A DNA stretch of 64,000 bases, from NCBI RefSeq assembly GCF_001548115.1, contig NZ_AP014821.1, positions 3,041,262-3,105,261 on the forward strand, read 5' to 3'. The stretch comes from Geminocystis sp. NIES-3709 (GTDB taxonomy: Bacteria > Cyanobacteriota > Cyanobacteriia > Cyanobacteriales > Cyanobacteriaceae). Every line of letters starts with the position of its first letter. Positions within the stretch are counted from its first letter, which is position 1. The translations under genes were made by a program, and so were the position numbers. The notes below the pieces were generated by a model. It was not told the origin of the DNA, made no database searches, and worked only from the letters and a program-made list of their open reading frames with translations. This document shows positions 10,810 to 14,016 of the stretch, in pieces.

Positions 10810-12636
10810 ATGAGTAATTGGAAAAAAGGATTAAAACTAAATAATGGTCAATACGTTATTGAGTCTATTTTATTAAGAAGTGGTACAGGATTTTATTATC
10901 GAGCAAAAGATACCAGTAATTCACAATTAGTAACAATAAAAGCTACTAATATATTCTGGTCATCCCATGAAGATAAAAAGAATTTTGAAGAAAAGTTAAT
11001 TAAACAGGCACAATTAATCGCTAATAAATGTTCTAGTCCTAATATTATCAAACTTTATCCTGAAGTTTTCCTCGAAAATAATCGTGCTTACATGATAATG
11101 GATTATCTTGAGGGAATGGATTTGGCTACTTATGTCGATCGAAAAGGTAAATTGTCCACTGATTCTGCATTAAAATTAATTACTAAAATTGGATCTGCTT
11201 TAAACATCCTTCATCAAAATAGGTGTATTCATCAAGACATTAAGCCACAAAATATCATCATTGATCAGAATACAGAAGAGCCAATACTAACAGATTACGG
11301 ATTAGCCGTCAAATTATTTGCTTTAGCACCAAGAAAAACCCAAAATATGGACTCTTTTAGTCCACCAGAACAGTCTGCTAATAATAACACTAAACCAGCT
11401 ACAGATATTTATTCTTTATCTGCTATACTTTATGTTTTAGTAACAGGACAATTACCTACTCCTGCAAATTTCAGAAGTTATAGAGATTTAATTCCACCCC
11501 AACAATATAACCCAGAATTGAGCGATCGATTTAATCAAGCTATCATTCAGGGAATGGAATTAGACATAGAAAAACGCCCTCAAAATTTAAGAGATTGGTT
11601 TCAACTATTTAAGGAAAATCAACCCGATAATTCACCGAATATTCCGAATAAAACCCTCACCGCAGAAATGAGGGAAAAAATACTTTCCGCAGTGGTAGAT
11701 AATGACGAAACCATTGTACAAAAAATATCTCCTATTAATGCACCACCCACCATTATTAAACCTAAAACTAACTATCCGAATATCGAAACCTTTGAGTTTG
11801 AGACAATTTCGATCGAACCAGAGAAAAAATTATTTGGTTTAATGTCAAGTCTTAAGAAAAATACTATCACCAAAAACGGACAATTTTTTGTGGAATATCT
11901 GGGAGAAGGAGTTAACCTTGATATGGTATTCATTCCGTCAGGATCATTTATGATGGGATCAAATAATAACGAAGTTGGTAGAGATAAAGATGAAAACCCT
12001 GTACATTTAGTTAATCTAAATTCTTTTTATATCAGTAAATATCCCATTACCCAATTACAATGGCGTACAATATCATCATTCCCCAAAGCAGGCCGCCCCG
12101 TCAAGAATAATCCTTCAGCTTTTAAAGGGGATAACTTACCAGTAGAAAAAGTATCATGGTTAGACGCTCAAGAATTTTGTAAACGCCTAACTAAATATAC
12201 GAATAGAAACTATAGATTACCAACAGAATCAGAATGGGAATATGCTTGTCGTGGTAACACTAAGTCAGCATTTTTCTTTGGAGATACTATTGCCCCTGAC
12301 ATTGTCAACTATGATGGAAGAAATGATCATAAAAAAGGAAAATTCGACAAAAAAACAACCCCTGTAGATAGTTTTTATCCTAACCCCTTCGGTTTATACG
12401 ATGTTCATGGTAATGTCTGGGAATGGTGCGAAGATCACTATACTAATAATTATGTCCATACACCGAAAGATGGTTCAGCCTATAATGCAACTATGAGTAA
12501 TCAACCGAGGGTTGTTAGAGGGGGTTCGTGGTCTTTATCTTCGCAATATTGTCGTAGTGCAAAAAGAAGTAGTTATGCCGCCGATTCCAATTACAATTTT
12601 ATCGGTTTTAGGGTTGTGTGTGTGATTGATAATTAG
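10810..12636 (+). CDS. Ser/Thr protein kinase fused to a formylglycine-generating-enzyme-like domain
   Basis: A 608-residue predicted cytoplasmic protein. The kinase domain (about 10-275) has VTIK with Lys 44, HQDIKPQN at 141-148 (catalytic Asp 143) and DYG at 162-164 in place of DFG. A linker follows. The C-terminal SUMF1/FGE-sulfatase fold (about 375-605) has MVFIPSGSFMMGS, RLPTESEWEYACRG, GNVWEWC and RVVRGGSW. The ATP-binding Gly loop is weak (LLRSGTGFYY), but Lys and Asp remain, so activity is plausible. Such fusions occur in cyanobacteria. The FGE-like part may be a recognition module rather than an oxidase. The IS630 element begins about 40 bases downstream. Confidence 0.92.
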   Translation: MSNWKKGLKLNNGQYVIESILLRSGTGFYYRAKDTSNSQLVTIKATNIFWSSHEDKKNFEEKLIKQAQLIANKCSSPNIIKLYPEVFLENNRAYMIMDYLEGMDLATYVDRKGKLSTDSALKLITKIGSALNILHQNRCIHQDIKPQNIIIDQNTEEPILTDYGLAVKLFALAPRKTQNMDSFSPPEQSANNNTKPATDIYSLSAILYVLVTGQLPTPANFRSYRDLIPPQQYNPELSDRFNQAIIQGMELDIEKRPQNLRDWFQLFKENQPDNSPNIPNKTLTAEMREKILSAVVDNDETIVQKISPINAPPTIIKPKTNYPNIETFEFETISIEPEKKLFGLMSSLKKNTITKNGQFFVEYLGEGVNLDMVFIPSGSFMMGSNNNEVGRDKDENPVHLVNLNSFYISKYPITQLQWRTISSFPKAGRPVKNNPSAFKGDNLPVEKVSWLDAQEFCKRLTKYTNRNYRLPTESEWEYACRGNTKSAFFFGDTIAPDIVNYDGRNDHKKGKFDKKTTPVDSFYPNPFGLYDVHGNVWEWCEDHYTNNYVHTPKDGSAYNATMSNQPRVVRGGSWSLSSQYCRSAKRSSYAADSNYNFIGFRVVCVIDN

Positions 12637-12741
12637 GGATTGGGAGTTGAGAGTTAAAGTAAAGTATTAAATTGAATAAGCTAAGACGCATTGATTTGGT
12701 ATATAATTTAAGTCAGAAAAGATAAAACTTAGGTGTGATTT

Positions 12742-13899
12742 ATGCCTTCTAAAAATTTTTTGTCAGAGGAAGAAAGAAAGTATCTACAAGATGCTTTAAA
12801 AATAGAAAAGAGATCGGAAGTCAGGGAAAGAATTTTAATATTTTTATTAGAGAATGATGGTAAAAATTATCAAGAAATAGCAGTTTTTTTGGGTTGTTCC
12901 CCCAAAACGGTGGCTTACTGGGCAGTTCATGGTAATCCTAATAATGTAGATTCATTGCAAGATAAAAGAAGAAAAGGAAACCAAACAAAAGCAACGGATA
13001 AATATATTGAAAGATTATTAGAAGTAGTTGATAAAAATCCTGAAGATTTTGGATATGATTTTGGTCGATGGACGGGGCAAAGATTATCAGAACATTTGGA
13101 AAAAGAAACAGGAATTAAATTAAGCAAATCACAAGTAGTGAGGATATTAAAAAGAAAAAAGTATAGTTATATTTGGGGAAAATATAGTTTAGAAGACAAA
13201 CAAAATCAAGAACAAAGAAAAGCATTTAAAGAAAAATTAGAACATTACATAGAAATAGGTAAAGAGAATCCTGAGTTAGTTCAAGTATGGTTTTGGGATG
13301 GGGCGTTTAAAGTGGCGAACTAAATTCGCCACACAGCCCCTCATGAATGTGGTTTTAGTTTAAGGGTGATAAGAAGAAAAACATGGACGAAAAAAGGAAA
13401 AAGAAAAAAGGTGAAGGGAGAAAGAAGAAGAGGAAGAGTAAATATCATGGGAGGAATAAGATATTCGGATAAAAAAAGAAGATGTTTTGTAATAAAAAAA
13501 GGTGATTCAGAAACGTTTTGTGAACAATTAAAAAAGTTATGGGAAGAAATAAAAAATGAATGGGTAAGTAAGGGAAATGATGAAAAAGATTTTAAAGAAT
13601 GTGGTCCGAAAATAATCATAATATTAGACAACGCAAGTTTCCATAAAAAAAAGGAAATAGTAGAAAAAATAGAAAAAAATCTACCGAATATAAGACTAGA
13701 ATATTTACCGGTATATAGTCCAGATTATAACTTAATAGAATTAGTGTGGCATTCGGCAAAGGAATATATAGCTTATAGAAACTTTGAAAATAAAGAACAG
13801 CTAGAAAAAACAGTAAATTACTTATTAAATGAAGGAAGTTTAGTAATTAATTGGAGTAAAAAATTTAAGAATAAGGGTGAATTAATCAATGTAAGTTAA
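12742..13899 (+). pseudogene. IS630-family transposase interrupted by a 45-bp insert
   Basis: Two open stretches (12742-13323 and 13366-13899) are in the same frame. The first has the helix-turn-helix domains (EIAVFLGCSPKTVAYW) and ends just after WFWD, the first catalytic Asp (186). The second resumes CGFSLRVIRRKTW and carries LDNASFHKK and YSPDYNLIELVWH, the later D and E blocks. Between them is a 45-base insert with an in-frame TAA at 13321-13323. Removing it restores DECGFSL and a 370-residue transposase. Spacing of AGGTG before ATG 12742 supports that start. Confidence 0.9.
13301..13345 (+). repeat. 45-bp palindromic insert inside the transposase gene
   Basis: The insert contains a hairpin with perfect 8-base arms gtggcgaa (13312-13319) and ttcgccac (13325-13332) around ctaaa, and outer arms ggggc/gcccc. 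ATG occurs on both sides (13298-13300 and 13343-13345), a possible 3-base duplication. It is much richer in GC than its host gene. The length is a multiple of three, so only its internal TAA breaks the frame. It looks like a tiny mobile palindrome. Confidence 0.7.
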
Positions 13900-14016
13900 A
13901 TGCGTCTTAGCTTACCTTTTATTTGTACAAATTTTTTGTGAGTAACGCCCCTTGTCTCTTGTTAATTGAATTAAAGTTTCTGACATCAAACTCAGGTAAA
14001 ATCCCATTTCCAATTC

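Follow-up and report, generated by a model that had tools for sequence, protein, structure and literature searches.

A 45-nt palindrome in a Geminocystis IS630 transposase gene probably belongs to an apparently undescribed family of mobile hairpins in cyanobacteria

The small dispersed repeats (SDR) of Nostoc, attributed to Elhai et al. 2008, are reportedly hairpins of 21–27 nt that are thought to be mobile, and are said to lie often nested in other repeats. Palindromic elements that reside within genes include the Rickettsia palindromic elements (RPE), dispersed palindromes that sit in frame in functionally unrelated genes and seem to be translated (PMC3733652, PMC10969869); they have been reported either at ~150 bp or as the CGTC-tagged RPE-4 and RPE-6. 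Intragenic REPs have been reported too: DNA repair genes are a prominent case (PMC3733652), and cyanobacterial tnpA-REP genes harbor REPs with the frame unbroken (PMC6006769). The CGTC-tagged REPs (Di Nocera 2013) are short tagged hairpins for which a dedicated transposase is absent, and CGTC repeats have not been reported from cyanobacteria (PMC3733652). Here, we analyzed a stretch of 64,000 nucleotides from Geminocystis sp. NIES-3709 (the window), in which a transposase gene is interrupted by a short palindrome, and we consider it highly probable that this insert is a copy of a REP/RPE-like family of 45-nt mobile hairpins in cyanobacteria.

The host of the palindrome is an IS630-family insertion sequence at 12677..13914 (+ strand), of which 24 insert-bearing copies were extracted, with identical ends and with outside flanks that all differ. 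Its terminal inverted repeats, TAAGCTAAGACGCATT (12677-12692) and AATGCGTCTTAGCTTA (13899-13914), have TA at both ends, and its transposase combines a DDE_3 catalytic domain with HTH domains (Pfam DDE_3 and HTH_33), all of which are features of IS630/Tc1 elements. The transposase is cut in two by a TAA within the insert. Its N-terminal half (12742..13323, + strand; PF13592, PF13565) is a 193-aa part with the HTH domains and the first catalytic Asp, while its C-terminal half (13343..13899, + strand; PF13358 positions 16-145) comprises the remainder of DDE_3, including the second catalytic D and the E, and has GTG at 13366 as its first in-frame start codon. A search of solved structures by sequence returned nothing relevant. 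Immediately upstream of the IS is a gene whose product joins a Ser/Thr protein kinase to a domain of the FGE-sulfatase type (formylglycine-generating-enzyme-like; 10810-12636, + strand).

The initial annotation described an insert of 45 bases with palindromic arms and a single TAA, and in these respects it is accurate. The element, ATGGGGCGTTTAAAGTGGCGAACTAAATTCGCCACACAGCCCCTC, folds into a hairpin with a 5-bp outer stem (GGGGC at 13300..13304, paired with GCCCC at 13336..13340), a 7x3 internal loop, an 8-bp inner stem (GTGGCGAA at 13312..13319, paired with TTCGCCAC at 13325..13332) and the loop CTAAA, which contains the in-frame TAA (13321..13323), all on the + strand. As single-stranded DNA, it folds far more strongly than shuffled sequences (z = -6.9, 0/200). 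Covariance model R1 matches 13298-13343 with 67.1 bits (E 3e-15), a match that follows by construction, as the window insert is one of the 11 R1 seeds. The insert had been placed directly after the codon of the first catalytic Asp; that residue is the correct one, but the empty sites described below set the bounds at 13298..13342 (+ strand), within the Asp codon, and the first two bases of the element (AT in the window, AC in most relatives) rebuild GAY, that is, Asp. The accompanying claim that the DDE codons are involved is valid for the first D and not for the other catalytic codons, since the insert separates D186 from a Glu codon that encodes a non-catalytic residue. Similarly, the flanking pair of ATG is present but is not a target duplication, as relatives at other sites show none.

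Within this 4.4-Mb genome (G000), the core insert is the same in 25 IS630 copies and is lacking in four others that are nearly identical. The four empty copies, which are the kind of site proposed initially as a check on mobility, read GGGATGAGTGTGG, while the 25 filled copies read GGGATG...AATGTGG with an additional 45 nt, and filled copies are ~99% identical to empty ones. The element was found nowhere outside IS630 in G000, including by a wider pattern search of the genome, so that the palindrome multiplied there only as IS cargo and its spread in this genome is by hitchhiking on the IS. Of 58 distinct family members, 7 have the loop CTAAA, and the in-frame stop was thus probably brought by the element itself. 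Among the four empty copies, one has an intact frame (L012), two have nonsense codons, and one is frameshifted. Within the reading frame, the filled copies differ by 12 substitutions; 3 are synonymous against 2.8 expected, and extra frameshifts or nonsense codons occur in several copies. Given this neutral ratio and the further damage, the TAA-bearing copies look like non-coding passengers that evolve neutrally and are mobilized in trans. Filled copies L029, L034, L040, L042, and L043 and empty copy L010 have 4 bp (AGGA) duplicated in tandem near codon 8; being common to filled and empty copies, this duplication points to a slippage hotspot or to spread by gene conversion.

The same IS630 nucleotide is also occupied in at least two other families. 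In G263, a genome from another family of the order, all 13 related IS630 copies are filled at the same nucleotide, and 12 of these are open frames of 396 aa that read W-D-GAFKVATQVRHTAPH-E-C. No insert-free copy was found in G263, and its active transposase therefore most likely includes the 15 extra residues. The 13 copies show 35 substitutions, 24 of them synonymous versus 8.7 expected (0/200,000 simulations as high); with the shifted copy left out, the count is 22 of 30 versus 7.75. Substitution sites in G263 are phylogenetically non-independent, which makes the P value approximate; the contrast with G000 in the synonymous share is nonetheless large. This substitution pattern shows strong purifying selection on the insert-bearing transposase of G263, which is most likely functional and tolerates the 15 residues next to the catalytic Asp. 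The IS630 site thus constitutes a natural experiment, in which an open 15-codon insert goes with purifying selection and a stop-bearing one with neutral evolution, and it can now be tested how an enzyme operates when its active site holds 15 foreign residues. The site is also filled in G205, G213, and G258 (the genus of G263) and in G153 (a third family), where the copies are degraded. In L151 and L178 of G263 and L154 of G258, a 2-nt alteration on the 3' side of the hairpin causes a frameshift, and these copies look like cases of insert decay. Other hairpin inserts of 15–16 codons were observed at four different positions of IS630 transposases (L209 in G112, L214 in G281, L181 in G285, and L215 in G168), mostly of another hairpin type (e.g., GCGCACCGCCCGCGCCGAGGCTTCCTCGGCG...), with four open-frame copies of 387 aa in G112. 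It seems that cyanobacterial IS630 genes are used by several families of small palindromes.

Beyond IS630, a covariance model built from 11 copies matched the family in 97 of 391 Cyanobacteriales genomes (E <= 0.01), often with at least 15 matches per genome, 15 being the maximum scored for any one genome. As in REPs, the family is a short GC-rich hairpin present in many copies per genome. An alignment of 59 distinct sequences has paired bases in 96.5% of its cells and double-sided pair changes in 57 cells, versus 13.0 in shuffles (0/500 as high) and 6–11 in slid controls, counts that lean towards the proposed structure because the alignment was fitted to it; a MAFFT alignment of the 11 seeds gives similar covariation (13 vs 3.9). 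Double-sided changes affect 7 of the 8 inner-stem pairs across the family. The family is apparently undescribed, with no gathering-score match to any Rfam family and no description in the literature searched, and it would add a widespread group of Cyanobacteriales to the few palindromic elements known to reside in genes. The initial proposal of a miniature mobile palindrome that had entered a mobile element is consequently borne out by a covarying family, by many flank contexts, and by empty sites, although within G000 the element is confined to IS630 and the further copies with different flanks that had been anticipated are found in other cyanobacteria.

Many copies have spread as cargo of other repeats, which renders the number of primary insertions uncertain. 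The element was seen nested in larger repeated palindromes, GCAAATGGG...TAAATCCACATTTGC or GAGGACTCCCGTT..., that copy it around genomes (L116, L120, L122, L123, L125, and L126; L106, L117, and L131). Matches in G094 and G054 to a 21-mer were set aside, being mostly other palindromes that have the inner arm alone in common with the family. Selection for stop-free frames was likewise rejected, as family members have a mean of 3.8 of 6 frames open versus 3.65 in shuffles; with open frames no commoner than in shuffled sequences, compatibility with genes may be a by-product of the 45-nt length and GC content.

Insertion contexts are biased, with G preceding the element in 39 of 49 distinct flank contexts and T-G-A-A favored downstream. 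Where the empty form is known or predicted, taken from relatives or from a conserved protein motif, junctions fit a plain 45-nt insertion with target duplication absent. The IS630 junction is GGG/ATGA (a slash marks the point of insertion), with its empty form known from relatives. Empty forms predicted from sequence apply to the junctions in a group II intron reverse transcriptase (RT; GGG/AAAAAA, empty form GGGAAAAAA, GKKTAG), in TnpB (AAAGG/ACAG, empty form AAAGGACAG), and in RecJ (ATCGG/AGAA, empty form ATCGGAGAA). Copies within genes are located in open frames of RT, RecJ, TnpB, PKS, TPR, NRPS, and radical SAM genes, running with or against the host gene and using three frames, and since 45 nt amount to 15 codons, the frame of the host gene is preserved. 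Annotation pipelines are liable to miscall genes with such inserts. The element is also found at intergenic and variable-linker positions. The radical-SAM gene was discarded as an empty-site test, with its insert in a hypervariable linker and a clean empty form absent. One group II intron (L104 in G096) has two copies of the element (1194-1239 and 1501-1546), one upstream of the ORF and the other in frame in the RT, between the NQG and KKTAGVDG motifs, and G323, a genome from a different family, has the RT site occupied as well (L130, 1501-1546).

The element thus prefers targets around GGG/A T-G-A-A and, at sites with a known or predicted empty form, adds 45 nt without target duplication; the recipient gene survives if the frame in use is stop-free. 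In G000, a TAA-carrying loop variant probably landed in the Asp codon of IS630; the transposase was broken, and the defective IS went on to reach 25 copies, presumably moved in trans by intact transposase, with one intact empty copy left. The palindrome itself might move as single-stranded DNA via a tyrosine transposase (Y1/HUH) resembling IS200/IS605-TnpA(REP), which is a guess drawn from the hairpin form and the absent target duplication. The loci read included no Y1 transposase with element copies on both sides; one IS605 tnpA had a copy on one side only. The candidate end hairpin of an IS200/IS605 element in G096 was rejected, as the hairpin is located ~55 bp inside the IS, on one side, and is passenger-like. 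Classification as a MITE was also rejected, with target duplication absent at the junctions read and ends unlike those of IS630. The case for mobility rests on empty and filled sites and on dispersal rather than on strain-to-strain insertion events, and how such tiny hairpins move is a question that can now be tested.

In the transposase tree, filled lineages are set apart from one another by empty elements. Together with the ~99% identity between filled and empty G000 copies, this sequence-based evidence favors repeated insertion at a preferred IS630 target. It had been suggested at the outset that an insert shared by intact relatives would argue against mobility; the insert is indeed shared by open relatives, and mobility stands, since the filled relatives are interspersed with empty ones. 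Repeated insertion is nevertheless the favored rather than the established history of the site, as all IS630-borne copies have the rare GTGGCG inner stem, found in 4 of 54 distinct contexts overall (similar flanks merged), which may reflect a donor subfamily in common, recombination among the IS copies, or precise losses after an early insertion. A single ancient event, in which the palindrome entered the shared ancestor of these IS630 elements at a site that is not targeted, followed by precise losses in some lineages or inter-copy recombination, is plausible at somewhat below an even chance. It is consistent with the shared stem and with horizontal movement of IS elements, and excision of the IS200/IS605 type, which is precise, would permit exact losses. 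Nonetheless, several such losses would be needed, as the insert is absent from G009 (the nearest relative of the G000 element, 88% identical), from the empty G000 copies (99% identical), and from G285 and G281, and the loops differ (CTAAA, GCAGG, and CCTGC).

Homing-like re-entry at the same IS630 nucleotide in separate cyanobacterial families, with Asp rebuilt by the first bases of the element and the hairpin either tolerated as 15 active-site residues or silenced at the RNA or ribosome level, seems unlikely; if true, such silencing would also keep stop-bearing copies active. It is very improbable that TAA-bearing copies still make active transposase via ribosome bypassing or stop readthrough and spread autonomously. 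This reading would suit the ratio of 25 insert-bearing copies to one intact empty copy, and the hairpin begins directly after the Asp codon, as in bypassing. As in mitochondrial byps and T4 gene 60, a stop-containing hairpin is located within a reading frame, but unlike in these systems, take-off and landing codons are unmatched (GAT before, CAT after), relatives with a simply open insert are translated through, and TAA-bearing copies decay neutrally, with substitutions at a neutral ratio that include nonsense codons and frameshifts; in other genes, moreover, both orientations occur. Bypassing was rejected on the grounds of the unmatched codons and the neutral decay. That the insert is an immobile regulatory RNA hairpin under selection to lower transposase expression is scarcely credible, since despite its strong fold and its retention in every related G263 copy, the same element is found in unrelated genes, in both orientations, and at intergenic and variable-linker positions.

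Under the mobile-hairpin explanation, the element resembles the Nostoc SDR, as reportedly described, in being a very small, presumed-mobile, and often nested cyanobacterial hairpin, although it is 45 nt long versus the 21–27 nt reported for SDR. Many copies have the sequence (G)ACGGGG, which is complementary to CCCCGT(C), and in this respect are similar to CGTC-tagged REPs. However, the leading G is that of the target (39/49 contexts) and the stem layout differs: the CGTC tag is an unpaired end on an 8–9 bp stem, whereas the first C here is paired within the outer stem, and the final base of CGTC would fall on the host nucleotide preceding the element, which in 10 of 49 contexts is something other than G. 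Like REPs (the hairpins of REP-associated tyrosine transposases, RAYT; TnpA-REP subclass 2.4), the element is a short hairpin with a bulge and is found in a DNA repair gene (RecJ); unlike GTAG-type REPs, it has no GTAG/GTGG tetranucleotide at its foot, judging from flank and end composition. In the loci read, no RAYT with element copies on both sides was found. RPE as described differ in size or tag from this 45-nt cyanobacterial element with a two-stem layout. Like RPE, however, the element resides in frame in unrelated genes with the product retained, as purifying selection on the insert-bearing transposase suggests.
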